In this document: piece by piece, positions 758-16,329 of the stretch | Layout: each line of letters opens with the position of its first letter | Numbering within the stretch: the first letter of the stretch is position 1 | IMG/VR virus record: IMGVR_UViG_3300010389_000100 | Span: 1-27,192 of that record | Length of the DNA: 27,192 bases | Direction: 5' to 3' (one strand) | Source: a virus | Program-made: the position numbers and the translations under genes | The notes under the pieces: model-generated | Database searches by the model: none | Seen by the model: the letters and a program-made list of their open reading frames with translations, nothing else | Told to the model about the DNA's origin: nothing

Positions 758-1162
758 ATGCCTGCGATTCGTCAATCACGTCGTTTTAAGGACATTTCGT
801 TGTCTTTCAAGAGGCATCCTGTAACTAATGATCTGGTTGCGATTACAAATGAGGATGCAATCAAGAGATCGGTAAGAAATCTTGTTGAAACGATCAATAA
901 TGAGAGACCATTTAACTCTCTAATTGGATCTGAAGTCAGAAATAGTCTTTTTGAGACTGCTGATGACAGTATTCTGACAAGATTAGAGGTTGAAATTGAG
1001 ACTTCTATCAAAAACTTTGAACCAAGAGTCTCATTACAGTCTGTTTTGGCGACTTATCCACCAGATACCAATGAAATAACCGTTGATATCAAGTACGATA
1101 TCGTCGGATTGGCAATAGATACACAAGAACTCACGTTTATTCTTCAACCGACTAGAGAATAA
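758..1162 (+). CDS. gp25: Baseplate wedge subunit gp25
   Basis: This protein of 134 residues is close to the 132 residues of T4 gp25. gp25 is a small wedge protein that binds the gp6 core of the baseplate and belongs to the GPW/gp25 family, which includes the type VI secretion protein TssE. The central region has the family pattern: a variable N terminus, then a helix beginning near NEDAIKRSVRNL, the segment ERPFNSLIGS, and the conserved EPR motif at residues 88-90 (E88, P89, R90). In this family EPR contacts the gp6-type partner. The C terminus is beta-rich, as expected. The start at 758 follows an exact late promoter. The stop codon overlaps the gp6 start in a TAATG junction, which suggests translational coupling. 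Nothing is truncated. The first 12 bases of this gene are identical to those of gp8. Confidence 0.93.
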   Translation: MPAIRQSRRFKDISLSFKRHPVTNDLVAITNEDAIKRSVRNLVETINNERPFNSLIGSEVRNSLFETADDSILTRLEVEIETSIKNFEPRVSLQSVLATYPPDTNEITVDIKYDIVGLAIDTQELTFILQPTRE

Positions 1163-3045
1163 TGGCTTTTACTCAATATACAAACCTAGATTTTGAGCAA
1201 ATTAAAGCCTCTTTGCGTGATTATTTGAGGTCAAACTCAAATTTCACGGATTTTGACTTTGAAGGATCCAACCTATCCATTCTTATTGACACGTTAGCGT
1301 ACAATTCGTACATTACGAACTACAATGCTAACATGGTCGCAAATGAAGCGTTCATTGATAGCGCTACTTTGCGTGAAAATGTCGTTGCGTTAGCTAGAAA
1401 TATTGGTTATGTACCCGCTTCAAGACGGTCTGCAACCGCAAACGTCTCATTTACCGTTGATTTGGGGTCAGGAACGACAAAATCAAGCGTAACACTCAGA
1501 GCCGGACTGGTTGCAATCGGTGATGCAGCGAATACTAACTTCACTTTTTCAATTCCAGAGGATGTAACGTCCCCAGTTGTTGATGGAATTGCTAGTTTTA
1601 CAGTTGATATCAAACAAGGGACATATTTGACCAAAGAATATGTCGTTGACACTGCTCAAAACAACCAAAGATTCATTCTTCCAAACCCATTTGTTGACAC
1701 ATCAACAATTAGAGTAAAAATTAAGGACACTTCAAGTTCTTCTACATCAAGAGTTTACTCTCTGGTTGATAATATCGTCGGAATCAAGACAACATCTGAG
1801 AATTATCTGATTCAAGAGATTCAAGATGAAAAATATGAGTTAATTTTCGGTGATGGTGTCATTGGTAAGAAGTTATCAAACGGAAATGTCGTAACTACAT
1901 CATATATTGTCTGTGATGGTCCAAATGGTAACGGTGTTGCCAACTTCGCATTTTCTGGAAAGTTAGTTGACAATGATGGTGGACTGATTACCTCTGGTGT
2001 TTCTGCTGTTTTCACAAACGAACCATCTAGAAACGGTGCGGAGATTGAAAATATCTCAACAGTCAAGAATTTAGCACCTAGAGTCTATGCATCTCAGTAT
2101 AGAGCAGTAACTGCGAATGATTATGAAGCAATCATTCCAACAATTTACTCAAATACTGGAAGTGTAACTGCATATGGTGGTGAAGATGCAACTCCACCTC
2201 AGTTTGGTAAAGTCTTTATCTCTATCAAACCCAAAAATGGTCAATATGTCTCCGATTTTGACAAGAGACAGATTCTGCAGAAGTTAAAAGGTTATAGCGT
2301 AGCTGGAATTCAACCAGAATTGATTGATCTTAAGTATCTTTATGTTGAATTAGACAGTAGTGTCTACTACAACACTAATATGACTGCAAGTGTCTCAGAT
2401 CTGAAGACAAAAATCACAAATTCTCTGACAATTTATAGTAAATCTGACGATCTGAATAAATTTGGCGGTAGATTTAAGTATAGTAAGGTCCAAAGAATCA
2501 TTGATGACACTGATACTTCAATTACATCAAATATTACGAAGGTAATTATTCGCAGAGACCTTGAAACTGACACTGCAAACTTTGCACAATATGAATTATG
2601 TTATGGTAACAAGTTCCATAACCGTCGTGGTGGTTATAACATCAAATCTACTGGTTTCCAAGTTGATGGAATTCGTGGAACTCTTTACTTTGCTGACCAA
2701 TATGTAAGTCCAACAAGAGGTAGGTTGTTCGTCTTTAGATTGGGACAAACTGGAGAACCAGAAGTCGTTATTAAGAACGCCGGCACCGTCAAATATGATG
2801 TTGGTGAAATCCTTATAGATACAATAAGGATTATATCTACTGTGAAAAATAATGACGTTATTGAGATTCAGGCAATACCAGAGTCTAACGATGTCATTGG
2901 GTTAAAAGATCTTTATGTGCAGTTTTCGGTATCAAAAACCACTGTTAGCACAATTGAAGACGTAATTTCTACAGGTGCAGATACTTCTGGTACTAGATTC
3001 ATTTCAACTTCCAGCTTCTTAAACGGAAAATATATTAGACAGTAA
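1162..3045 (+). CDS. gp6: Baseplate wedge subunit gp6
   Basis: This protein of 627 residues is similar in length to T4 gp6 (660 residues). gp6 dimers form the continuous inner ring of the T4 baseplate, and the family is related to baseplate J proteins. The N-terminal 90 residues have the characteristic pattern: NLDFEQIKASLRDYL, then FDFEGSNLSILIDTLAYN, then N-rich helices ending in ARNIGYVP. A baseplate-J-like segment YELIFGDGVIGKKL lies near residues 225-240, followed by a VxGPNGNG-type turn. The middle region (about 290-420) has the helical/beta pattern around RAVTANDYEAII and FGKVFISIKPKNG. The C-terminal part is beta-rich. It begins in the TAATG overlap with gp25 and ends in a TAATG overlap with the gp7-like gene, so the three are probably co-translated and their products meet in the same wedge. 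Confidence 0.93.
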   Translation: MAFTQYTNLDFEQIKASLRDYLRSNSNFTDFDFEGSNLSILIDTLAYNSYITNYNANMVANEAFIDSATLRENVVALARNIGYVPASRRSATANVSFTVDLGSGTTKSSVTLRAGLVAIGDAANTNFTFSIPEDVTSPVVDGIASFTVDIKQGTYLTKEYVVDTAQNNQRFILPNPFVDTSTIRVKIKDTSSSSTSRVYSLVDNIVGIKTTSENYLIQEIQDEKYELIFGDGVIGKKLSNGNVVTTSYIVCDGPNGNGVANFAFSGKLVDNDGGLITSGVSAVFTNEPSRNGAEIENISTVKNLAPRVYASQYRAVTANDYEAIIPTIYSNTGSVTAYGGEDATPPQFGKVFISIKPKNGQYVSDFDKRQILQKLKGYSVAGIQPELIDLKYLYVELDSSVYYNTNMTASVSDLKTKITNSLTIYSKSDDLNKFGGRFKYSKVQRIIDDTDTSITSNITKVIIRRDLETDTANFAQYELCYGNKFHNRRGGYNIKSTGFQVDGIRGTLYFADQYVSPTRGRLFVFRLGQTGEPEVVIKNAGTVKYDVGEILIDTIRIISTVKNNDVIEIQAIPESNDVIGLKDLYVQFSVSKTTVSTIEDVISTGADTSGTRFISTSSFLNGKYIRQ

Positions 3046-6000
3046 TGATAGACACCGCCTCCAAGAAAGTCCAGATCAATCAGATCGTTAGGAGTCAATT
3101 ACCTAGCTTTGTATCTGAAGACAATCCACTTTTTGTTGATTTTCTGAGTGAATATTATAGGTCACAAGAATTTCAGGGTGGACCAATTGATATCATTACT
3201 AATCTGAATGAATATCAGAAATCGGAGTCGTTTTCTGGTCAAAATAGTCTGGTTGGATTTACAACATCCGTTGGAGACACTCAATCTTATGATACAACGA
3301 TCAATGTTGTATCAACTGCTGGATGGCCATCAAAATATGGTCTCTTGAAGATCCGTGATGAGATCATCACCTACACTGGAATCACTACAAACTCATTTAC
3401 TGGTTGTATTCGTGGATTTAGTGGTATTGACAATCTGCATAGTCCTGTAAATTCCGAAAGTTTGGTATTTGCGGAAACAGAAGCTAGTAGCCACCCCGCA
3501 TCTTCAAAAGTTACTAATTTAAGTAACCTATTTCTTCAAGAATTCTGGAAAAAGACGAAGAATCAGTTTTTACCTGGTTTTGAAGACCGTACTCTTACAA
3601 GCGATCTTGATAAGGCTAACTTTTTACGTCAAGCCAAAGATTTTTACGCTTCCAAAGGTACAGATGAAGCAATCAAAATCCTTTTTGCGGTTCTTTTTAA
3701 CAAAAACGCTGAAGTTATCAAGCCAATTGAGTATCTGATCTCTCCATCAGATGCTGATTACGTTGTAACTGATGATATTGTAGCTGAACTCATCAGTGGC
3801 GACCCCAAAAACGTAATTGGTCAGACTTTATATCAAACTGGAGTTGATGGAACTAGTGCATCAATCTTCAATGCTCAAAGATATGAGAAAAATGGGAAAT
3901 CTTACTATCTGATCAGTCTTAGTAAGAATTCTATTATTGGTAACTTCAATGTTACTGGATCTTCCATTCTTGTAGAGAACGTTTCCATTGGATCTACGGT
4001 AATCACCGTAGATTCTACAATTGGATTTGGAAATACTGGTTCTATCTACATTGGTGTTGGTCAAACTGTTGGAATCGCTACGTATACCAACAAATCATCC
4101 ACTCAGTTCTTTGGATTAACTGGTATTACGTCATCTTATACCAATGGTGAGTTTATACGCGGTTCTAGGACCGTATATGCGTATGAGAATGGCGATTTAA
4201 CCAAACCTGTATACTTTAGACTAACCTCTGTTGCGTCTGGTGCAGATATTGGTGATTATCTAAATCTTCAACCTGGTGATGTAGTAAAAGGTAAGCAACT
4301 TGGCGATGTAACCGCCGCAACCAATTATAGACTCAATTCTTGGATTCATAATATCAAGACAAAGAGTGATGTAGCTAAAGCAGTTGAAACAAACAAGTCA
4401 ATTATTGATACTGTAACCAACACAGTAACAACAACGACTCCACACCTCCTGAATCTTGAAGATTCGGTGACTTTACTGGATTTGTCAAGTGCGATTCCTG
4501 CAAATGTCGTTGGAACTGTATCCCAGGTTATTAATAGCAACCAATTTAAGATTTCAATCACTTCTGGGACGATTAATGTCTCAAGAACTTACAAGGTACA
4601 GAAAAATCTCACTTTTGCGTCTAGTAACTCAAATCAGATTGATGTATCTAAGTTTGTTGCAAACGTACAGAACACATACACGTCTCTGGATGACAAATAC
4701 TTCTATGTGACCTCTGGATCTCTTCCATCCTACAAAATTTACGCCACAGACAGAAGAAAGACGTTTGGTTCTGGTGACGTAAGTTCAAATTCCATCACAA
4801 TCAATAATCACGGTTTTTACACTGGTGATTTAGTCACATATTCGCCAGTTTCTGTTGGTGGATCTTCAATTACGGGACTTTCAACAAATACGATCTATGC
4901 AGTCTCTAAAGGAGACGATAATACCATTTCTCTTGCTCGTAGTCCATATGATGCGTTCGTTAAGAGAACAATCACAATTACAGGAGCTGGTACGACTCAT
5001 AGATTAGTACCAACTGAACTTAGTAACAGAAATCTTCAATATCAAAACTATTTGAGACAGTTCCCAGTCAATCAGGAACTCAAGGAGTATGATGTTACTC
5101 TTAAAAATGAAAATGTTGGTATGTTCAGAAACGGTGTGGAAATCGTTTCTAATGTATCTGGTGATTCCATCTATAATGGAAATATTGTCAAGATTGAAGT
5201 TGAGAATGGTGGAAGTGGGTATGATGTAGTTAACAGACCATATATTCACATTAACGACTCTATTGGTGCTGGTGCAACTGCATATGCAGTTGTTGAAAAT
5301 GGTACTTTCAAGTCAATTGAGATCACATATGGTGGTTATGACATTAGACAAACACCATCTATCAGAATTACTGGTGGTAATGGATCTGGTGCAACAGCCT
5401 CTGCAAGACTTCGTTCTATTAGAAACTCTAAGATCTTTAACTCAGATTCTGATGTTAATCTAACAGATGACAGGATTGAATATCCTGCAAATCACCTGTT
5501 CTACAATGGTGAGTCTGTAGTTTACTACAAACCCAATGGATATGCAGCCGTTGGTGGACTTGTTGATGGTTCTCTGTATTATGTCCATAAGGTAAGTGAC
5601 ACTGTACTGCAGTTGATGAACACATACAGTGATGCGCTGAATGGCCTGAACGCAATCAATCTTACTTCTAGATCTGCGGGTGCAAGTAGACTTGTATCTA
5701 CTGTAAGTAGAAATATTCTTGATAGAGTTGTTGTTGAGAATCCTGGATCTGGATATTCAAACAGAAAGGTTCTTGTTACTGGAACTCAGTATCCCCCAAG
5801 CACCCTTGGTGATGTAATTACCAGTGGAATCAATACCTCTAGTAATTACATCTATTTTGAAAAACATGGATTCAAGTCTGGTGATCTAGTAGAGTATAGT
5901 TCTACTGGTACGGCCATTGGTGGTATTTCTACCACACAGAACTACTATGTTGTCAAACTGGACGATAACAGATTTAAAGTCGCTGGTGCAGGTATCGGCA

Positions 6001-9000
6001 CCACTTCTACGACTCTGGACTATGATAAACAGAACACCGTTAATATCACATCTGTAGGTGTAGGAACACATACGTTTAAGTATCCAGATATTCATGTAAA
6101 CATTGATGTTGTTTCTGGATATGCAAGTTCTACAGTTTCATACCCAACTGTAAGACCTGTCTGCACAGGAACGATAAGTAATGTTTATATCACAAGTTCT
6201 GGTGCTGGATATGGTGTAACCAATACCTTCAATGTTCATAGAAGACCTGATGTAACCATTTCAAGTGGAACTGGTGCAATCATTGATGTTATTGTTAGTG
6301 ATGGAAAGATCAGTGAGGGTCTTGTAAAAAATGGTGGATCTGGATATTCAACACCACCTATCTTGACTGTTGTTGGTGATGGTAAGTATGCCAAGGTTGT
6401 TGGCACAATCTCTGGTGGAAAAGTAACCTCAGTCACCGTTATTGATGCAGGAGCAGGCTACACTCAAGAAAAGACAAGTATCAATGTAACACCAGTTGGT
6501 TCTGGTGCTAAGTTTAGAGCTGATGTAAAAGAATGGAAGGTTGATTTCGTTCAGAAACATAAGAAGTCATTCAATCAGAATGATGACGGTATCATCGTTC
6601 CAAGTCAAAATAGTGACTATGGAAATAGATACGTCCACTCATACCTGTCCAGAAAACTGAGACAGATTCTTAATGACAACATTGAGAGTGACTTCAGTGA
6701 AAAGTCAACACTTTCTCACTCACCTATCGTTGGTTGGGCTTATGATGGATCCCCAATCTACGGCCCATATGGATACAGTCTTCCAACTGGAGGATCTGTA
6801 AAGAGACTTGCACCAAGTTATACTTTAACCACAAAATCAAATAGACCTCCAACTTCAGTATTTCCTCTTGGATTCTTCATTAGTGATTGGGAATATACTG
6901 CAGATGGTGATCTTGATCAATATAATGGTAGATTCTGTAAGACTCCAGAATTTCCTGATGGAGTCTATGCATACTTCTGTACAATTGAACAAAGTGATAG
7001 TGCTGACGTTCCTTTTGTTAACAACAGAGAGCCACTGTTCCCATATGTCTTAAATGGGTTTAAGTTTAAGAAGAACACATTTAATGATCAACCAAGCGCT
7101 CTGCAGAATCTGAGTATTCTGAATAGTGGTGAAGTTGTAAGAAACACCTATCCATATAAGTTTGGATTCACAAATTCTGAGTATGACTATCTGATTTCCA
7201 ACAATATCAAGGACACTGAGTTAGTTGTAAGATCTGTTAAGAAGTCTGGAATTTCAACGGTTGATGTAGTTATTGGTGGAAACAACTATAAGGTTGGTGA
7301 AAGAGTCGTCTTCAACAACTCCAACTCTGGTGGATCTGGTGCAGCTGCAAAGGTAGAAACTGTTGTTGGTAGAGGAATCACCGAGATTTCATATACCGAG
7401 GACACGGTTTCTAATATTTCATTCTCTTATGCAAATCAGTTGGTTACTGGAGTTGCAACAGCATCTCACAACTTGGCTAATAATGATCTTGTAATCATCT
7501 CTGGTATTGGAACTGGAGAACTCAAGTTTGTTGAAGGTGTTAGAACAATCGCAGTATCCTCCGTCACTGCAAGACTTGATGTTGGTATTGGTACTAGTGG
7601 CGCAACAGGAATCACCACAACTCTGACACTAGAGACTTCTGGATCTTCTGGAAATATCTTTGTTGATGACACACTGGTTGTTGGTGCGACTAGTGAGAGA
7701 TTAAAGGTTCTTTCAATTGATAGAACTAACAATAAGTACAGAGTATTACGCCAGATTGGTGTTACTACCTTCCACAATGCTGGACAACTGTTGACTGTTG
7801 ATCAGAACAGATTTACATTCACCGTTGGTGTTCAGACTAATCTCTCTATTGAACCAAATAAAAAGATTGTCTTTGATCCACAGAATTCTATTGGTATTGG
7901 AACCACGGTTGTTGTCCAGTCTGTCGCTGGGGTTGGAACAACAACCGTAGTTAGAGTTAAGTCCAATGATGGGACTATCTTGTCTGACCACCAGTTACCC
8001 CCATCTGGTTCAACCGCAGACAATACTATCTCTATCACGAACCATGGACTCAAGACTGGTGATAGGTTGGTTTATAAAGTGGGTGTGGTTGGAGTTGCAC
8101 TCACTGTTTCAAACAATCTGAACCTGAGTGATTCATTTAATCTTGCAAATGGTCAGACCGTCTTTGCAGTTAAGAAAGGTGAGAATCTACTTGGTATCAC
8201 TACAACCAAGGCCGGTATTGGATCCACCTCTACATCACTTTACTTCTTACCAGTTCAAGATAACACTGGATCAGAACATTCGTTCACTACTGCAAATGAA
8301 GAACACATTGGTTCACTTAAGAAGTATACGGTAAATGTAAAAACCGCAAGTGATCACTCTCTCAATACAACCGATAAAGTAACTGTTTCACTGTTACCAA
8401 GTTCTACTCTTTCTAAGTCAGTAGAATACGATTCTACGGCTAGAAAGACTCTTATTGATCCAAAATACTTCAACACCACTAATGTTGGTGTAGGAACTTC
8501 CCTCTCCACAATTACAATTACGGATCACAACTATTCAAGTGGTGATAAGGTTCTGTACGTCTCTTCAAACCCTGCCACACCACTCATCAATAGAGGTGAG
8601 TACTTTGTTCAAAAACTGGATGATAATAGATTCAGACTTTCAACCAACTACAAAGATTCCGTCAGATATGGGGGTCAGTTCGTTGGTATTACAAGTTTTG
8701 GATCTGGAGTACACAAGATTTCAAGAATCAATCCAAACATTGAAGTAATCAGAGGTCAGACAGTTGGATTCGCTGTTTCTGATACAACAGTTTCCGACTT
8801 TAAACTTGAATTCTTTGAGGATCAAGACTTCCTCAACAGATATGATGGTATTGGAATTAGTACAGAAGTTACAAGATCTGGAACACCTGGTTCTTCTGGA
8901 GCTCTTGTCAATCTGAAGATCTCTAATGATTCTCCTTCTGTTCTCTACTACAAGTTGACTCCTACCAACTTAGATACAATCTCAGTTGCTAAGAGAGACG

Positions 9001-12000
9001 CAAAACCAGATGCAAGTGTTGTAAATGGTTCAAAGATTGTTGTGAGATCAAGTGATTACTCTGGAACTTATGCAATCTCCACATCATCTGCAACTTCTTA
9101 TAAGTATCAAGTTCCTAAGAAACCAGAGACTTCATCTTATACTTCTTCTGGAGTAACCACCTTCAGATATGTAACGAATTCACCCACAGCTCTTGGACCA
9201 ATCAATGAGATTGATGTGTCTTTTGGTGGAGTTGATTATGTAAAAACACCTGGTATATCTACTGTTAGAACCACCAATGGGTATGGTTCTGTACTCTCAT
9301 TGCACAACAATGACAGCATTGGTTTACCATCCTTTACAGAAATTACAAAGATTGGATTTGACTATCCATCCGATAGTTCTGTAAAACCAAGAATTGATAC
9401 TCCATCAATTCTTTCAATCTCCAAGAACTACAGAATTTCTTCTGTTGGTGTTGTCACAACTGGTAGAAACTATCTTTCTGCGCCAGATTTGATTGTTGTT
9501 GGTAAACCCGATGCAAATCTCGTTGCAAACATTGAAGGTACATCCGTAACATCAGTAGACGTTCTGACAGTCGTAAGAGGATTGGATAACGTATCCAACC
9601 CAGTGAGAATTGTTCCTATCAGAAACTCAAACGGTGTTGGTATTGTATCCGCATCGTCCAATGGTGATACAAACTTCCTTACACTGACTCAACCTACTAA
9701 TGGTTGGAAGGCTGATGGATCCGACTTCCCATTCAAAGTGGGTGATAAGATCTTTGTTGAAGGAATTGGAATCGCAACCGCATTGACTTCAACTGGTGGT
9801 TATAACTCTGAAGATTATGATTATCAGTTCTTCACGGTTAAAGCAAGAACCCCACTGTCATCTCAGATCACATATTCTATCACTGGTATTGGAACAACTG
9901 GTGGTACATTTGACGCAGACAATAGTGCTGGTAGAGTTATCAGTCAGTCAGATCTGCCAACATTTGACATCAAATTGCAGAAAGAAGAATTCTTTAATGG
10001 TGAAAAAGTTACTTATGGTGCAAATGGTTCTGCGTTAGTTCTTGCTGAAAATGGTTATGATTCCATTTCCAACACCCTTAGAATTAATCAAACCAACTCA
10101 AACGTTTCTGTTGGTAATGTTGTTAAGGGATCCATTTCTGGTGCAGAGGCAACCGTAATTGGTGTCTACTCCGACAAGAAGTTCTTTGAAACAGATTACA
10201 GATCTGAAAGACCAAAAGGTTGGCAAAAAGATACTGGAAAACTCAACAATGACTTCCAGAGAATTGAAGATAGTAACTACTATCAAAGTTTCTCTTACTC
10301 AATCAAGAGTGAGGTTCAAGAGACCAAGTGGAATGATGCAGTAGATAGTATTGTTCACCCATCTGGATATAAGAACTTCTCTGATCTGATTGTTAGTTCT
10401 ACACCCAACACTGGATCTGCTAGAAGTGACAATCTGAGAGTTAGTGCTGGTGCAGCCGCAACCAGTCTGTTTGTTAACATTGATAATGTTAAGTCCTTCT
10501 ACGTCAGAGAAGACTTTGATTATGCATCAGAGACAACACTGAATAATCAGTTATCCAAATATATTACTTTCCAAAACAAAAAGATTACTAATTTTATCAA
10601 CGCAGTTTCTAACAAAGTTGATATCATTGATGACATCTCTAGTAGTTTCACTGGAATTGGAACAACAACAAGCGCATCTATCGTTGGACTGACATCATTC
10701 AGACTTACAACTGACAATGGTCTGATCGTACCATTTACTAAGATCTTTGATGGTTCTAGTTCCTCCGTCATCTCCGTTGGTTCTTCTGTAATTTCTCTGA
10801 ACAACCACAACTTCCAAAATGGTGAAAAGATCAAGTATGATCCTGGTAATGAAGTTTATGGTAACAACAGAGTTGGAATTGAAACATCCAATAAGGTAAT
10901 TGGTGGTGTATCAACTTCATTCTTACCTGCAGAACTCTATGTTATCAAGATTGATAATAATAACTTCTCTCTTGCTGGTTTAAACACTGCGGTAACAAAC
11001 AATGAACCACTCACTTTCCGTGCAGTTGGAACTGGAACAAGTCATTCCTTTGATGTTGTTAATCCAGACAACAGAGTTATTATTGACATTGATGGAATCA
11101 TTCAGTCTCCACTGTATAGAAAAAATGTTTCAGTCTCTCTGAATGCAGCTGTTGGTGTTGGATCAACTACAATTGAAGTTGTTGGTGTCACATCAATCTC
11201 AACCAATAATCTTCTTGAGATTGACAGAGAAATCCTCAGAGTCAAGACTGTTGGATTTGGTTCAACCAATGTTCTGACAGTTGATCGTGGATTGTTTGGA
11301 TCTGTTGCAGCTGCACACACTGTTGGTGCTGCAGTAACGATGAAGGGTGGAGACTTCCACATCATCAAGGATGTCATTCACTTCGTTGATCCTCCATACG
11401 GTGCAGTCGGTGTAACAACACTCCAACCAGGAATTTCAACACAGTCAAGTTTCTCTGGACGTATCTTCAACAGACAAGATCCAAACACTAACTTTATCTT
11501 TGATGATATTTCTGATAGATTCACTGGTGTTGGCAAGACCTTTACTCTTCTGCAGAATGGTCAAGATGTAACTGGTATCGTAACTACTAAGGCTGGTGCT
11601 GGTGGAGATGATGAGGTTATTAACAATGGAATCATTCTTATCAACAATGTATTCCAGAGACCAACGATTGACTACACCATGGATGAACGTCAGAATCCTG
11701 GTATTGGTGCTTCTATCTTCTTCACTGGAACCAATAGAGAGGATCTGCCAAGAGGTGGAATCATCAATGAAGTAACAGTTGGTCTTGGTTCTGGATATCA
11801 AACTCTTGTCGCTGCGGCTGCAACTGCAATCATCAATGGATCTGGTTCTATTGAATCTGTAGTTGTAACTGGTGGTGGTTCTGGTTACAGATCATCAGAT
11901 TCGGTCTCCATTCAGGTTCTGAATCCACTGGGAATTGGTTCCACCGCAGTTCTTACTGCAACTGTTGGATCTGCTGGAACTATCACTGGAATCACAACGA

Positions 12001-14702
12001 CTAGTGGTGGTTCTGGATATGCTTCAACCAATCCTCCTGTGATTGTTGTTGGTATTCCAACCGCATACTCAAATATCACATTTACTGGTGGTCAGGGTAG
12101 TGGACTGGAAGCTACAATCATCGTTGGAGCTGGTGGAAGTGTAATTGATTTCAACATCACTGATAGAGGAATTGGATATGCAAATGGTGATGTACTGACT
12201 GTTGCTGGAATTCCTACAGATCCTAATGTTGGTGCTGGGTTTAGTGCAATCACATTCACAATTGATTCTATCATCAGTGATGAGTTCTCTGGTTACAGTT
12301 TCGGTCAACTGATTGCCCTTGATGATTTCTCTTCTGAGTTTGATGGATTCAAACAAGTCTTTACACTCAGTAGAACGATCACCACAAAGGAGATCATCAA
12401 CATTGGTAGTGATGACACCTCAATCAAACCAGCAAACAATCTGATTGTTGTTCTGAACGGTGTGTTACAAACACCAGGACAAAACTACATCTTCAATGGC
12501 GGAACACAGATTGAATTTACTGAACCTCCTAAGGCCGGAAGTAAGTTACAGATTCTGTACTTCAGAGGATCAAATACCGATGTAAACTCTGGTAATCCAT
12601 TCAAGACTGTTAAGACTGGTGATAAACTCACTTTACAAAGAAATGGTAACTTTGTAAAACAGGGTAGTAGAACTGTAACTGGAATCACTGGAGTAAGTCA
12701 AGTTGAAACTAACCTCTATGGTGGGGCGGGAATCAACACTGATCCTAATTTCAGAAGAATGGTTTCTTGGGAAAAACAAACCAAGGATCTCATTCTTAAC
12801 AATGAAGAACTTGCAAAATCAAGAGATTCGCTGATTGCAAAGGTTGAACCATCAACAAACATTATTCAAAATGTTGGTATCAACTCTAACGTCATTTACG
12901 TTAAGAATGCATTCCCATTCTTCAGTGCATATGACAATCGTTCCGACAGAAATACTGTTCCTGGAACTGGTATCAAGATCATCAGAGAGAACAACGTTGA
13001 AAGAGCAAGAGCAACTATAACAGTTTCTGCTGGTGGAACCGTAAGTTCTGTATCAATCACTGATGGTGGTATCGGATATGAAACAGTACCAACCGTTTCA
13101 TTCTCTTCTACAATCACTCAAATCCAAGAGATTGGTAAGACATGGACTCAATCAACTTCAAACACCGATATTGAGTACAACGATGTCACTTATGCGGCTG
13201 GACTTTTCGTTGCAGTTGGAAGTACATCTGGTGTCAACACATCTAAGGATGGTGTTACTTGGTATGATTCGGGTGTAAGTGGATTTGGAACCTTCTTTGA
13301 TGTATTCTCCAACGCCGATAAGATCATTGCAGTTGGACTTGGTGGTACAGTTGCAATCAGCACCGATGGTTCTACGTTTGATCCTTCCAGAATCTACAGA
13401 AGAACAAGAGATGGATTCCTCACAACCTATGATGATGAAGCAATCACTCAAGACTTGTTCTCCGTAACTGTGGGAACCAACAAGGGTGTTGCAGTTGGTG
13501 CTGGTGGTACTATTCTCTTCAGTCAGAATGGTCCATCTGGATTTGGTACTTCATTCATTGTTGCTGATAAGTTCTCTTCTCAGAATCTGCGTAGTGTTGC
13601 AAACAATGGAACGACCTTCATTATCGTTGGTGACAGTGGAACTCTTCTGAGATCTACTGATGGTGAAACCTGGTCTGGTGTAACAACTACTTCTGTTACA
13701 ACTAGATTGAATGATGTCTACTACGCAGACAACAAGTGGATTGCAGTTGGTGCTGCAGGAACTGTCATCAGATCTACCGATGACGGTCTGAATTGGAGTG
13801 TTGTTTCTTCTGGTTCAACCTTCAGCCTTAACTCAGTTTACTATCAAAACGAAGTTTGGGTCGCTATTGGACAGACTGGAAACGTTCTGAACTCCATTGA
13901 TACTGACAACTGGTATCAGAGATCCGTTGGTGTATCGGAAGATTACAATGGTCTCGCCTTTGGTGATAATAAACTGGTTGCAGTTGGTCTTTCTTCCAGT
14001 ATTGTTTACAGTTCCTTTGAAACTGTCTCTGCCGCAGGAACAGTAACAATTTCGGCTGGAGGAACTGTCACTGGTGTAACGATCAGTGATGGTGGATTTG
14101 GATATGATTCAACCTACTCTGTTGATGCTCTGATTTCTGTTGAACCTGTCACAAGTGAACTCATCACTAGTGTTGATTGTGATGGTGACTTCGGTATTGT
14201 TGTTGGAGTTGGAACAAGTGCAACTGGAATTGGAACTGATAGTCCAATGGTTACCTTTGAACTTGATTCTGATCCATTCTTAGAGAATGCTGGATTTGGT
14301 GTTATTAACAAGAGTGGTATTCAAACTGGTGATTACTTTGTTGTTCACGGATCTGTTGTTGGAAACGGACTTACATCAATCAACGTTGATTCTAGTGTAA
14401 TTGGCATCGGAACAACATTCATTGATAACGTCTATAAAGCGGATCAAGTTGTTTCTTCTTCGTCTGGTATTGTTACCGTTCATTCTAATGTTCAGTCACT
14501 TGCTGGTCTTGGTGAGACAAGTCTTCCAAGAATCGGATACTACAGTTGGGGTAAGTTCTACAACTTCACCAGAGACGTTCTGAATCCAAAATCGTTCACC
14601 ATCAATAATCAAGATGGTTACACTGGACTCTCAACGGCTCCAATCGTGGTTCGTATAAACGGACTCAACGAAAACTACAGTGACTTTGATCAGACAACAT
14701 AA
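3045..14702 (+). CDS. gp7: Giant gp7-position baseplate wedge protein with YHYH-type domain and Asp-box propeller
   Basis: A single uninterrupted frame of 3885 codons (about 0.4 MDa), in the genome position of T4 gene 7 (wedge initiator, 1032 residues). The first ~260 residues form a conserved-looking head (QLPSFVSEDNPLFVDFLSEY; later KGTDEAIKILFAVLFNKNAE) that recalls tail proteins plugged into the baseplate. After this come long beta-rich repeats: about 12 GGxGY-type turns, at least six repeats with the pattern H-G-x3-G-D/E-x-V-x-Y, and LNGV-type domains (residues about 2819-2895 and 3090-3180). A YHYH-type domain lies at about 1225-1340 with YAYF at 1308-1311. A gp7-like conserved patch (SNYYQSFSYSIKSEVQETKW) begins at residue 2410. 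Residues 3363-3661 look like a seven-repeat Asp-box propeller. No signal peptide is seen. It is coupled to gp6 by TAATG. The gp7 assignment rests on synteny and the N-terminal region; most of the length is probably accessory decoration or receptor-facing structure. Confidence 0.85.
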   Translation: MIDTASKKVQINQIVRSQLPSFVSEDNPLFVDFLSEYYRSQEFQGGPIDIITNLNEYQKSESFSGQNSLVGFTTSVGDTQSYDTTINVVSTAGWPSKYGLLKIRDEIITYTGITTNSFTGCIRGFSGIDNLHSPVNSESLVFAETEASSHPASSKVTNLSNLFLQEFWKKTKNQFLPGFEDRTLTSDLDKANFLRQAKDFYASKGTDEAIKILFAVLFNKNAEVIKPIEYLISPSDADYVVTDDIVAELISGDPKNVIGQTLYQTGVDGTSASIFNAQRYEKNGKSYYLISLSKNSIIGNFNVTGSSILVENVSIGSTVITVDSTIGFGNTGSIYIGVGQTVGIATYTNKSSTQFFGLTGITSSYTNGEFIRGSRTVYAYENGDLTKPVYFRLTSVASGADIGDYLNLQPGDVVKGKQLGDVTAATNYRLNSWIHNIKTKSDVAKAVETNKSIIDTVTNTVTTTTPHLLNLEDSVTLLDLSSAIPANVVGTVSQVINSNQFKISITSGTINVSRTYKVQKNLTFASSNSNQIDVSKFVANVQNTYTSLDDKYFYVTSGSLPSYKIYATDRRKTFGSGDVSSNSITINNHGFYTGDLVTYSPVSVGGSSITGLSTNTIYAVSKGDDNTISLARSPYDAFVKRTITITGAGTTHRLVPTELSNRNLQYQNYLRQFPVNQELKEYDVTLKNENVGMFRNGVEIVSNVSGDSIYNGNIVKIEVENGGSGYDVVNRPYIHINDSIGAGATAYAVVENGTFKSIEITYGGYDIRQTPSIRITGGNGSGATASARLRSIRNSKIFNSDSDVNLTDDRIEYPANHLFYNGESVVYYKPNGYAAVGGLVDGSLYYVHKVSDTVLQLMNTYSDALNGLNAINLTSRSAGASRLVSTVSRNILDRVVVENPGSGYSNRKVLVTGTQYPPSTLGDVITSGINTSSNYIYFEKHGFKSGDLVEYSSTGTAIGGISTTQNYYVVKLDDNRFKVAGAGIGTTSTTLDYDKQNTVNITSVGVGTHTFKYPDIHVNIDVVSGYASSTVSYPTVRPVCTGTISNVYITSSGAGYGVTNTFNVHRRPDVTISSGTGAIIDVIVSDGKISEGLVKNGGSGYSTPPILTVVGDGKYAKVVGTISGGKVTSVTVIDAGAGYTQEKTSINVTPVGSGAKFRADVKEWKVDFVQKHKKSFNQNDDGIIVPSQNSDYGNRYVHSYLSRKLRQILNDNIESDFSEKSTLSHSPIVGWAYDGSPIYGPYGYSLPTGGSVKRLAPSYTLTTKSNRPPTSVFPLGFFISDWEYTADGDLDQYNGRFCKTPEFPDGVYAYFCTIEQSDSADVPFVNNREPLFPYVLNGFKFKKNTFNDQPSALQNLSILNSGEVVRNTYPYKFGFTNSEYDYLISNNIKDTELVVRSVKKSGISTVDVVIGGNNYKVGERVVFNNSNSGGSGAAAKVETVVGRGITEISYTEDTVSNISFSYANQLVTGVATASHNLANNDLVIISGIGTGELKFVEGVRTIAVSSVTARLDVGIGTSGATGITTTLTLETSGSSGNIFVDDTLVVGATSERLKVLSIDRTNNKYRVLRQIGVTTFHNAGQLLTVDQNRFTFTVGVQTNLSIEPNKKIVFDPQNSIGIGTTVVVQSVAGVGTTTVVRVKSNDGTILSDHQLPPSGSTADNTISITNHGLKTGDRLVYKVGVVGVALTVSNNLNLSDSFNLANGQTVFAVKKGENLLGITTTKAGIGSTSTSLYFLPVQDNTGSEHSFTTANEEHIGSLKKYTVNVKTASDHSLNTTDKVTVSLLPSSTLSKSVEYDSTARKTLIDPKYFNTTNVGVGTSLSTITITDHNYSSGDKVLYVSSNPATPLINRGEYFVQKLDDNRFRLSTNYKDSVRYGGQFVGITSFGSGVHKISRINPNIEVIRGQTVGFAVSDTTVSDFKLEFFEDQDFLNRYDGIGISTEVTRSGTPGSSGALVNLKISNDSPSVLYYKLTPTNLDTISVAKRDAKPDASVVNGSKIVVRSSDYSGTYAISTSSATSYKYQVPKKPETSSYTSSGVTTFRYVTNSPTALGPINEIDVSFGGVDYVKTPGISTVRTTNGYGSVLSLHNNDSIGLPSFTEITKIGFDYPSDSSVKPRIDTPSILSISKNYRISSVGVVTTGRNYLSAPDLIVVGKPDANLVANIEGTSVTSVDVLTVVRGLDNVSNPVRIVPIRNSNGVGIVSASSNGDTNFLTLTQPTNGWKADGSDFPFKVGDKIFVEGIGIATALTSTGGYNSEDYDYQFFTVKARTPLSSQITYSITGIGTTGGTFDADNSAGRVISQSDLPTFDIKLQKEEFFNGEKVTYGANGSALVLAENGYDSISNTLRINQTNSNVSVGNVVKGSISGAEATVIGVYSDKKFFETDYRSERPKGWQKDTGKLNNDFQRIEDSNYYQSFSYSIKSEVQETKWNDAVDSIVHPSGYKNFSDLIVSSTPNTGSARSDNLRVSAGAAATSLFVNIDNVKSFYVREDFDYASETTLNNQLSKYITFQNKKITNFINAVSNKVDIIDDISSSFTGIGTTTSASIVGLTSFRLTTDNGLIVPFTKIFDGSSSSVISVGSSVISLNNHNFQNGEKIKYDPGNEVYGNNRVGIETSNKVIGGVSTSFLPAELYVIKIDNNNFSLAGLNTAVTNNEPLTFRAVGTGTSHSFDVVNPDNRVIIDIDGIIQSPLYRKNVSVSLNAAVGVGSTTIEVVGVTSISTNNLLEIDREILRVKTVGFGSTNVLTVDRGLFGSVAAAHTVGAAVTMKGGDFHIIKDVIHFVDPPYGAVGVTTLQPGISTQSSFSGRIFNRQDPNTNFIFDDISDRFTGVGKTFTLLQNGQDVTGIVTTKAGAGGDDEVINNGIILINNVFQRPTIDYTMDERQNPGIGASIFFTGTNREDLPRGGIINEVTVGLGSGYQTLVAAAATAIINGSGSIESVVVTGGGSGYRSSDSVSIQVLNPLGIGSTAVLTATVGSAGTITGITTTSGGSGYASTNPPVIVVGIPTAYSNITFTGGQGSGLEATIIVGAGGSVIDFNITDRGIGYANGDVLTVAGIPTDPNVGAGFSAITFTIDSIISDEFSGYSFGQLIALDDFSSEFDGFKQVFTLSRTITTKEIINIGSDDTSIKPANNLIVVLNGVLQTPGQNYIFNGGTQIEFTEPPKAGSKLQILYFRGSNTDVNSGNPFKTVKTGDKLTLQRNGNFVKQGSRTVTGITGVSQVETNLYGGAGINTDPNFRRMVSWEKQTKDLILNNEELAKSRDSLIAKVEPSTNIIQNVGINSNVIYVKNAFPFFSAYDNRSDRNTVPGTGIKIIRENNVERARATITVSAGGTVSSVSITDGGIGYETVPTVSFSSTITQIQEIGKTWTQSTSNTDIEYNDVTYAAGLFVAVGSTSGVNTSKDGVTWYDSGVSGFGTFFDVFSNADKIIAVGLGGTVAISTDGSTFDPSRIYRRTRDGFLTTYDDEAITQDLFSVTVGTNKGVAVGAGGTILFSQNGPSGFGTSFIVADKFSSQNLRSVANNGTTFIIVGDSGTLLRSTDGETWSGVTTTSVTTRLNDVYYADNKWIAVGAAGTVIRSTDDGLNWSVVSSGSTFSLNSVYYQNEVWVAIGQTGNVLNSIDTDNWYQRSVGVSEDYNGLAFGDNKLVAVGLSSSIVYSSFETVSAAGTVTISAGGTVTGVTISDGGFGYDSTYSVDALISVEPVTSELITSVDCDGDFGIVVGVGTSATGIGTDSPMVTFELDSDPFLENAGFGVINKSGIQTGDYFVVHGSVVGNGLTSINVDSSVIGIGTTFIDNVYKADQVVSSSSGIVTVHSNVQSLAGLGETSLPRIGYYSWGKFYNFTRDVLNPKSFTINNQDGYTGLSTAPIVVRINGLNENYSDFDQTT
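3297..3462 (+). other. Beta module A1 of the gp7-like protein (E-I-I-x-Y-T-G type)
   Basis: Residues about 85-139 read as a compact beta module: T-I-N-V-V-S-T-A-G-W-P, then LLKIRDEIITYTG, then FTGCIRG and a His-Ser-Pro end. Related modules occur in the same protein near 11133-11400 (LEIDREILRVKTVG, then VDRGLFG, then AAAHTVG) and in the DUF4815 protein near 22628-22857 (VKINNEILSYTG, then ITRSID, then ETHRVG). The shared order is a strand pair, an E-I-L/I strand, an R-G or R-S turn, and H-x-V/P. The function is unknown; it is probably a structural bead. Confidence 0.55.
4801..10990 (+). repeat. Six dispersed H-G-x3-G-D repeats in the gp7-like protein
   Basis: At least six copies of a roughly 45-60-residue beta repeat occur, starting near bases 4807 (NHGFYTGDLVTYSP), 5490 (NHLFYNGESVVYYKP), 5863 (KHGFKSGDLVEYSS), 8040 (NHGLKTGDRLVYKVG), 8524 (DHNYSSGDKVLYVSS) and 10803 (NHNFQNGEKIKYDPG). 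Each starts N/D/K-H, continues with G-D/E and a V/L/I-x-Y strand, and in most copies later has a Y-x-V strand and D-D-N-x-F/I. The copies are separated by other modules, so the array is dispersed rather than tandem. A weaker relative (SHNLANNDLVIISG) lies near 7467. Confidence 0.7.
6717..7070 (+). other. YHYH-type domain with a YAYF signature
   Basis: Residues about 1225-1342 of the gp7-like protein match the order of elements in the YHYH domain: VGWAYDGSPIYGPYGY, a variable section, then GDLDQYNGRF and a segment ending GVYAYFCTI. The eponymous YHYH tetrad corresponds to Y1308-A1309-Y1310-F1311, so both His residues are absent. The D-G-x-P-I-Y-G-P and L-D-x-x-N-G-R signatures are intact. The function of this domain is unknown to me. 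Loss of the His pair suggests that any metal-binding role it might have had is absent here. Confidence 0.75.
13014..13082 (+). repeat. GGxGY module flanking the propeller on the left
   Basis: This 23-codon module translates as T-I-T-V-S-A-G-G-T-V-S-S-V-S-I-T-D-G-G-I-G-Y-E. It closely matches the module at 14040-14108 on the other side of the propeller region, reading T-V-T-I-S-A-G-G-T-V-T-G-V-T-I-S-D-G-G-F-G-Y-D. Sixteen of 23 positions are identical and the other changes are mostly conservative. Confidence 0.75.
13131..14028 (+). other. Seven-repeat Asp-box beta-propeller domain in the gp7-like protein
   Basis: Residues 3363-3661 contain seven successive repeats, each with a hydrophobic strand ending near V-A-V-G, a G-T-V/I strand, then an Asp-box-like turn. 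The turns read TSKDGVTW, ISTDGSTF, FSQNGPSG, RSTDGETW, RSTDDGLNW, NSIDTDNW, and a final copy that has only the V-A-V-G and S-I-V-Y-S-S strands. The opening TWTQS strand could close the ring with the last repeat. S/T-x-D-x-G-x-T/x-W is the Asp-box signature of BNR/sialidase-like propellers and of the seven-bladed Ycf48/HCF136 photosystem II assembly factors (established knowledge). No catalytic sialidase pattern (Arg triad) is evident, so binding rather than catalysis is more likely. The domain is in frame and continuous with the rest of the structural protein. Confidence 0.75.
14040..14108 (+). repeat. GGxGY module flanking the propeller on the right
   Basis: This is the partner of the module at 13014-13082, in the same orientation and the same reading frame. 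The two copies bracket the propeller-coding stretch, which suggests that the propeller entered between duplicated modules or that the module was duplicated with it. The DNA copies differ at many third-codon positions, so the event is not recent. Confidence 0.7.
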
Positions 14703-14724: not shown

Positions 14725-16329
14725 ATGCCTGCGATTATCTCAGATCAATTTAGAATATTAAATGCTGCGAATTTTGTCGCTGGTGTAGCTGACACTTCAC
14801 AGTCATATTATACTTTTATTGGTTTATCTAATTCTGGTGACGTTGGTGCTGGATATGGCACTACAGATTGGAATACAAATACTCCGGCTCCTAAAGATGG
14901 GTTCCGTGAGTATAATGATGATTATGACACCATGATTGCAATGAAAAAACTTGCAACTGGTGACGTGAAGAGAATGGTTAGAAAGTACACATGGGCCTCT
15001 GGAACGGTCTATGAGATGTTCAAGAATAACTATTCTAGAACCAACCTGAGTCCACAGACATCATCAACTAATCTGTATGATGCAAAATATTATGTTGTGA
15101 ACAGTCAATACAGAGTATATCTCTGTATCAACAATGGTCAGTCACCAGATAACCCAACTGGTAAACTGTCTCTTGATGAACCAACGTTCACTGATTTGGA
15201 ACCCAGATCCGCAGGCACTAGTGGTGATGGATACGTCTGGAAATATCTTTATACAATTAACCCAAGTGATATCATTAAGTTTGATTCAATTGACTACATG
15301 CCTGTTCCTGAAGGATGGGGAACTGGTGATAGTTTTGATGTAAAGAATAATGCAGTTGACGGAAAAATTGAAACTGCACTGATTGTTAATGCTGGTGGTG
15401 GTTATCAACCAATCAGTACCACATTCACAAATATTCCTATTCTTGGTGATGGAACGGGTGGTAAGGTCAGTGTTAGTGTTGACTCACAAGGAAAGGTATC
15501 CAACGTTTCCGTAACAAACGGTGGTACTGGATACACCAGAGGAACCGTTCAGTTCTACCCAGGTGCTCCTGGTTCTGAAACTGGTGGTCCTATTTCTGGT
15601 CTCTCTGCCGTTGGTGTTGGTACAACATCTGTGGCTGAGTTTGAAGTCATCACTCCTCCTCCTGGTGGACATGGATATGATGTTTATAAGGAGTTGGGTG
15701 CCTTTAGAGTTCTTCTCTATTCCCGTTATGAGAACGATTCGGGTAACCCAGATTTCATCATTGGAAACGACTTCGCCAGAGTTGGTGTTGTAAAGAATCC
15801 ACAAACCCAATCTGGAAGTCTGTTAACACTTTCTCGCGCAAGTGCTCTAACTGCACTTAAGTTGAGATCTCTTACAGGTGGTGACATTTCAAACACCACA
15901 TATACAGTAGATACACCAGTCTATCAGACTATCGGTGTTGGTTCTACGGCCGTTGGTTATGTTGCAAGTTGGGATTCATCAACGGGTGTTCTTAAAGTTT
16001 ATAATCCAGTTGGTCTTGGATCAACTGCTTATGGCTTTAGAATGGTTGACTTTGCATCACAAATTGGTGCTGGTGGAACCTATGTGGTTAGTGGACAAAC
16101 TTCAGGAAACGCTCTGGGAATTGAAACCAGTTTTGGTAGTTCTTCAAATCCAGGAACGGCTACTACGGTTGGATCCGCCTCTGTTCAACTAGGACAGAGT
16201 TTCGTTGAAGGTATTGCTCAACCAGAAGTCAAAAAATATTCTGGTGAGATCTTATACATAGATAACAGGGCAGCGATTCAGCGCAGTGCCACCCAGAAAG
16301 AAGACATCAAAATCGTATTAGAGTTCTAA
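14725..16329 (+). CDS. gp8: Baseplate wedge subunit gp8, enlarged
   Basis: This protein of 534 residues is longer than T4 gp8 (334 residues). gp8 forms dimers that tie gp7, gp6 and gp10 together in the wedge. The recognisable core is split. The N-terminal part (residues 1-200) has YTWASGTVYEMF and YYVVNSQYRVYLCINN, then GYVWKYLYTI. The C-terminal part begins with HGYDVYKELGAFRVLLYSR at residue 316 and ends with GEILYIDNRAAIQR (about 508-521) and KEDIKIVLEF. Between them, about residues 212-290 form an inserted beta section with two GGxGY turns (near 223-229 and 265-270). A second Gly/Ser/Thr-rich stretch at about 380-490 also looks added. The first 12 bases match those of gp25. The gene is preceded by a late-promoter-like site and followed after four bases by the DUF4815 gene, with an AAGAAG Shine-Dalgarno-like stretch spanning the junction. 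Confidence 0.9.
   Translation: MPAIISDQFRILNAANFVAGVADTSQSYYTFIGLSNSGDVGAGYGTTDWNTNTPAPKDGFREYNDDYDTMIAMKKLATGDVKRMVRKYTWASGTVYEMFKNNYSRTNLSPQTSSTNLYDAKYYVVNSQYRVYLCINNGQSPDNPTGKLSLDEPTFTDLEPRSAGTSGDGYVWKYLYTINPSDIIKFDSIDYMPVPEGWGTGDSFDVKNNAVDGKIETALIVNAGGGYQPISTTFTNIPILGDGTGGKVSVSVDSQGKVSNVSVTNGGTGYTRGTVQFYPGAPGSETGGPISGLSAVGVGTTSVAEFEVITPPPGGHGYDVYKELGAFRVLLYSRYENDSGNPDFIIGNDFARVGVVKNPQTQSGSLLTLSRASALTALKLRSLTGGDISNTTYTVDTPVYQTIGVGSTAVGYVASWDSSTGVLKVYNPVGLGSTAYGFRMVDFASQIGAGGTYVVSGQTSGNALGIETSFGSSSNPGTATTVGSASVQLGQSFVEGIAQPEVKKYSGEILYIDNRAAIQRSATQKEDIKIVLEF

Follow-up and report, generated by a model that had tools for sequence, protein, structure and literature searches.

A beta-propeller within the gp7-position baseplate protein

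The sequence analysed here is a stretch of 27,192 nucleotides (the window; positions 1 to 27,192 of IMG/VR virus record IMGVR_UViG_3300010389_000100), and our subject is a beta-propeller encoded inside a giant open reading frame (ORF) in the baseplate gene cluster of this T4-like phage of marine cyanobacteria. The ORF at 3045-14702 lies between a gp6-like gene (1162-3045) and a gp8-like gene (14725-16329), a gene order that is identical around gp7 in phage S-CAM9. By this position, together with its match to a baseplate-wedge profile, it fits a wedge gp7 of the T4 type. The Pfam Baseplate_wedge model gave 26.2 bits against a cut-off of 27, and a phmmer comparison of the whole protein of 3885 amino acids (aa) with PDB chains returned no match at E<=0.1. 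Near its C-terminus, the protein carries a self-contained, predicted seven-bladed propeller with mainly short Asp-boxes, inserted between two strand-loop-strand repeats. The features are listed below; blade limits follow the structural model and the repeat statistics.

3045-14702, + strand: gp7-position baseplate wedge protein, 3885 aa; PHROG 2885 'baseplate wedge subunit', 3233 bits
13005-13109, + strand: strand-loop-strand repeat 1, upstream flank (aa 3321-3355), ARATITVSAGGTVSSVSITDGGIGYETVPTVSFSS; strands predicted; adjoins repeat 2 in propeller-free phages
13131-14027, + strand: seven-bladed short-Asp-box beta-propeller (aa 3363-3661), from repeat statistics, AlphaFold2 and VIA-align
13137-13157, + strand: N-terminal closing strand GKTWTQS (model residues 48-52), ahead of blade 1 and predicted to complete blade 7
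13176-13274, + strand: blade 1, short Asp-box SKDGVTW
13293-13391, + strand: blade 2, short Asp-box STDGSTF
13392-13454, + strand: beta-hairpin excursion between blades 2 and 3, holding R3453 (codon 13401-13403)
13455-13562, + strand: blade 3, without Asp-box
13587-13685, + strand: blade 4, short Asp-box STDGETW
13707-13805, + strand: blade 5, the sole regular Asp-box, STDDGLNW
13827-13925, + strand: blade 6, degenerate short Asp-box SIDTDNW
13944-14027, + strand: blade 7, three strands of its own, without Asp-box
14028-14144, + strand: strand-loop-strand repeat 2, downstream flank (aa 3662-3700), SAAGTVTISAGGTVTGVTISDGGFGYDSTYSVDALIS; in the C-terminal region common to gp7 proteins with and without the propeller

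An earlier note, made from the letters of the window, had proposed a complete seven-bladed Asp-box propeller in the gp7-position protein and had named structure prediction as one way to check it. The AlphaFold2 model, computed from a 33-sequence alignment, bears this out: it predicts a closed toroid of seven four-stranded A-B-C-D blades in which the N-terminal strand closes blade 7, with a predicted local distance difference test score mostly of 88-97 over the propeller (about 90) and a predicted template modelling score (pTM) of 0.82. VIA-align superimposed the model on a designed seven-bladed propeller with a Z score of 30.2 and a root-mean-square deviation of 2.4 A over 271 aligned residues, and natural propellers gave similar results. 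In Foldseek searches with the propeller model, Ycf48 appeared among many propellers; among viral models, the gp7 of S-SSM7 was the second match, followed by many phage tail-type proteins. The model of the whole gp7 C-terminus has low confidence outside the propeller and the repeats (pTM 0.56), and we therefore make no claim about the orientation of the propeller.

Repeats and Asp-box turns

The seven repeats occupy residues 3363-3661 in the frame of the ORF, where the earlier note had placed them. They start at residues 3378, 3417, 3471, 3515, 3555, 3595 and 3634, with spacings of 39, 54, 44, 40, 40 and 39. When each blade was scored with a position matrix built from the remaining six and compared with 33-residue windows of gp7, blades 1-6 each scored above every other window; blade 7 was weaker, one non-blade window scoring above it. 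None of the shuffled versions (2000 per blade) matched the score of the real blade, blade 7 included. The strict Asp-box pattern occurs four times in the segment and nowhere in the rest of gp7; shuffled segments had a mean of 0.05 and a maximum of 2, and 0 of 5000 reached 4.

Two kinds of Asp-box are distinguished by Quistgaard and Thirup, a regular one, S-x-D-x-G-x-T-W, and a short one, S-x-D-x-x-x-W; they conclude that the turns serve to stabilise the fold and that ligand binding by them is unlikely (PMC2716378). The motifs quoted in the earlier note, RSTDGETW and TSKDGVTW, are indeed Asp-boxes, but they belong to the short and not the regular type. Short Asp-boxes stand in blades 1, 2 and 4 and, degenerate, in blade 6; blade 5 alone has the regular form, and blades 3 and 7 have none. 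In the model, these four to five Asp-boxes all fall at C-D turns, between the third and fourth strands of their blades, the placement expected in Asp-box propellers.

Carriers, empty site and a probable single gain

Searches with the propeller by tblastn found it always in gp7, at 54-56% identity in S-CAM9 (56%) and S-8S53/55/56 (Kanaloavirus), and at about 30% in S-SSM7/S-SSM6a, DSL-LC03, DSL-LC02 and Sf-FS3. An initial profile that included the flanking repeats matched propeller-free phages through those repeats and was rebuilt on the propeller alone; the propeller of S-SCSM2R was found only by this second profile (175 bits). Propellers of the S-SSM7 type occupy the same place in gp7 as that of the window, but they are about 25 aa longer and have fewer Asp-boxes. 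In IMG/VR, 28 loci carry a propeller of the window type, 74 one of the S-SSM7 type and 2 one of the DSL-LC03 type, and this recurrence within gp7 indicates that the junction is not an assembly artefact. Annotations of gp7 in the known carriers read only baseplate wedge, YHYH, exoprotein or hypothetical. In the S-SSM7 genome (L010, 1-13749), two genes are annotated as gp7, and the propeller is in the second. An apparent extra stretch of 70 aa in loci L022-L024 was rejected as an insertion, the match there merely starting earlier.

The corresponding site is empty in related phages. The upstream and downstream flanks of the propeller give matches that touch, overlap or lie no more than about 50 bases apart in Bellamy, S-SM2, S-B05 and B23, and the sequences have the two strand-loop-strand repeats in direct succession. 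The propeller-only profile had no match at E<=0.1 in these four phages or in SynMITS9220M01, P-SSM2, S-T4 and ACG-2014f, and gave at most 2 bits in P-TIM68, S-SKS1, S-SRM01, S-SCSM1, RN05-S and Sf-CH8. Joined flanks together with the missing profile match thus identify the propeller as a clean insertion between two repeats.

In gp8 trees, the eight carriers make up one side of a branch (support 90/93 with 16 phages and 95/93 with 24), and non-carriers lie on both sides of the drawn root, which is a midpoint root. The gp7 propellers likewise form a single group in the propeller tree (87/86). Relative to S-CAM9, the window has 56% identity in the propeller, 61% upstream of it and 52% in the C-terminus; relative to S-SSM7, the values are 31%, 37% and 33%. 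The simplest history compatible with these comparisons is a single gain followed by vertical descent, the direction of the change being read from the midpoint root; the domain would have been captured once by the ancestor of one Kyanoviridae branch.

Host contact or tail structure

Most likely, the propeller provides an extra contact surface, facing either the host or adjoining parts of the tail. We propose that it is a rigid, independently folded domain, tethered at two adjacent points and projecting from the wedge, probably with one copy per wedge and six wedges per baseplate if the T4 arrangement applies. It may work as a non-catalytic binding module presenting the face formed by the B-C and D-A loops. 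The likelier partner would be a host-surface component met as the baseplate lands, with neighbouring tail proteins as the main alternative. By analogy with other phage propellers, binding of a host glycan or protein is plausible, and we assign a probability of about 50% to a host-binding accessory domain on the baseplate wedge.

Several observations are in keeping with this proposal. Within the window's group, loop identity is 0.83 for B-C and 0.68 for D-A, compared with 0.51 for A-B and 0.59 for C-D. Between groups, conservation of the B-C/D-A face is much lower than within the window's group, and the D-A loops are not conserved. A face conserved within a group and much less between groups would be in line with a separate partner for each branch. 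Propellers on phage baseplates are also known: phiKZ gp131C (PDB 4GBF) is a seven-bladed propeller at the baseplate periphery, and the phi11 receptor-binding protein (RBP) has a propeller platform; both are proposed to bind the host, which is unproven for gp131C (PMC4901313). Those are separate peripheral proteins, whereas the gp7 propeller lies within the wedge protein itself, and a sequence search detected no relation of it to either one.

The region around the insertion point has received a second domain. In S-B43, RB11-B and RN05-S, an unrelated domain of 310 aa precedes the propeller-equivalent point by about 40 residues and stands where the first repeat begins; a Pfam scan of the RN05-S copy found no match. 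The gp7 proteins of RN05-S and S-B05 are 99.7% identical before this domain and 84% after it. The RN05-S domain (L196; EHVFHTLHMHG) is 84-91% identical to a domain in proteins of Syn33, S-RIM12 and S-RIM2 that otherwise have no blastp match to RN05-S gp7, which looks like a recent transfer between distant cyanophages. In Syn33, this mobile domain seemingly lies within a YHYH-like stretch. The propeller and the 310-aa domain occupy neighbouring spots; this stretch of the protein has thus taken up two unrelated domains in separate events and tolerates insertions. The 310-aa domain sits in a different loop from the propeller, and a role of the propeller type is not implied for it. More tentatively, the repeat pair might act as a display socket, a fixed exposed site on the wedge that independently receives unrelated domains and so changes the contact between baseplate and host. 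Its cargo would then be the propeller in one branch and the domain of the Syn33/S-RIM type in RN05-S/S-B43.

Other findings weigh against host binding. Part of the B-C loop conservation consists of structural glycine turns, and exposure of the domain on the virion is judged from its position. Receptor-binding domains usually change fast or are swapped; the propeller shows neither, its identity following that of the remaining gp7 C-terminus. The same host strain, WH8109, serves S-SSM7, which has the propeller, and Bellamy, which does not; WH8102 likewise serves Sf-FS3 with it and Sf-CH8 without it. The propeller is therefore not required for infection of WH8109 or WH8102 as such. Finally, a structural role would account for the strictly vertical inheritance about equally well.

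That structural role is the strongest alternative: the propeller would be a structural or assembly domain, a protein-protein platform on which adjacent wedge proteins, gp8, gp10-like proteins or folded tail fibres dock, and would have no contact with the host. All eight members sampled from the branch keep the domain, at identities as low as about 30% and across hosts that include marine and freshwater Synechococcus; it is inherited along with gp8, swapping was never seen, and it evolves at the same pace as the surrounding gp7. However, propeller-free relatives build a working baseplate with the flanking repeats directly joined, so that the propeller is not a core part. We regard this alternative as a real possibility at somewhat less than even odds. 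Overall, adhesion is favoured by the precedent of other baseplate propellers and by a site that tolerates insertions, a structural role by vertical inheritance.

A catalytic role is improbable. In this case, the domain would be a glycosidase trimming a host surface glycan, resembling a sialidase, a GH74 enzyme or the F510_1955 family. GH74 propellers are seven-bladed and have Asp-boxes (PMC2716378), and the best NCBIfam match of the propeller is 'F510_1955 family glycosylhydrolase'; nevertheless, this match reaches 42 bits, far under the cut-off of 175. GH33 sialidases have an F/Y-R-I-P (RIP) motif, an Arg triad and six blades. The gp7 domain, with seven blades, one conserved Arg and no RIP motif, shares none of these features, in agreement with the earlier note, which had set a sialidase aside. 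Outside the Asp-box positions, conservation of charged residues from group to group is rare (R3453). Binding is favoured over catalysis because there is one conserved Arg and no RIP motif.

Little is known of how T4-like marine cyanophages make contact with their hosts. Here, one gp7 branch has a discrete, foldable domain that its sister branches, some of which share host strains, cleanly lack, and this offers a ready experimental handle on such contacts. We found no description of cyanophage baseplate propellers in a search limited to open-licence papers, and the gp7 propeller, which is real, is apparently undescribed in cyanophages. Phage-baseplate propellers as such, including the fold and the baseplate location, were already known; the new points are the location of this propeller within the wedge protein, the clean comparison with empty sites and the short type of Asp-box.

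Relatives outside gp7 and the Ycf48 question

Propellers with the blade pattern AVGxxGTIxxSxDGxTW and mainly short Asp-boxes occur in Actinomycetia phage DSL-LC01, Limnohabitans phage DC31, Caulobacter phage Percy and a cyanobacterial 1156-aa protein (L200). They group with the gp7 propellers (97/96) but are borne by tail-fibre, hypothetical, stand-alone or cell proteins and not by gp7. A probable source is a pool of short-Asp-box propellers common to bacterial and phage proteins. A genome scan with the close gp7 alignment gave no cellular relative. A whole-genome search of four cyanobacteria likewise came up empty, an absence that carries no weight because the search probably missed Ycf48 at first. 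The 1156-aa protein (L200, 5328-8798) has at least seven short Asp-boxes and is the closest cellular relative found of the gp7 propellers, besides one in a nominally cyanobacterial genome (L201, G047:C844). There, the short-Asp-box propeller frame is broken by TAG codons and an rpoB-like gene lies on the same contig; the frame is possibly contamination or a decayed gene.

The earlier note had also considered derivation from a host Ycf48-like gene, which our comparisons do not support. The likeness to Ycf48/HCF136 consists of a seven-bladed Asp-box propeller with weak profile similarity: these proteins are the only solved structures detected by sequence with a profile at E<=0.1 (1.6e-9), and the host itself makes Ycf48. 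However, a profile built from 14 cyanobacterial Ycf48 sequences gave 6-26 bits for gp7 propellers, whereas Ycf48 members reached 422-547 and most other bacterial Asp-box proteins 50-120, and the NCBIfam Ycf48 model NF010237 scored the propeller at 22 bits against a cut-off of 326. In Ycf48, a patch of six conserved Arg binds D1 (PMC10403576). Across all aligned gp7 propellers only R3453 is a conserved Arg, and three are conserved within the window's group (blade register ignored), so the alignment suggests no counterpart of the patch. Ycf48 is a stand-alone lumenal protein with a signal peptide and usually a lipobox (PMC8038367); the gp7 propeller is an internal domain of a 3885-aa virion protein, without signal or lipobox. 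Ycf48 and the sampled Chloroflexota proteins have mainly regular Asp-boxes, in contrast to the mainly short ones of gp7. In the tree that includes Ycf48, the gp7 propellers group with phage propellers, apart from Ycf48 (97/96); a forced gp7+Ycf48 clade had a p value of 0.158 in the approximately unbiased test, which by itself does not reject that clade. Ruled out as the best reading by profile scores, Arg patch and Asp-box type, a domesticated host Ycf48 copy, whether able to engage D1/photosystem II or recruited from a Ycf48 gene, is very improbable. Taking a cyanophage match to 'YCF48/PSII assembly factor' as the sign of a captured photosynthesis gene is a tempting error, which the present case corrects.

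Other features of the gene cluster

Within gp7, a YHYH domain (Pfam PF14240, 88 bits) lies at 6696-6989 of the window (aa 1218-1315). The giant wedge protein is split in DSL-LC02 (L044, 331-335) and B23 (L040, 1424-1427), where gp7 is annotated as two adjoining ORFs. Immediately ahead of the baseplate cluster, positions 1-486 of the window hold the C-terminal part of a ferredoxin-like gene (PHROG 3704, auxiliary metabolic).

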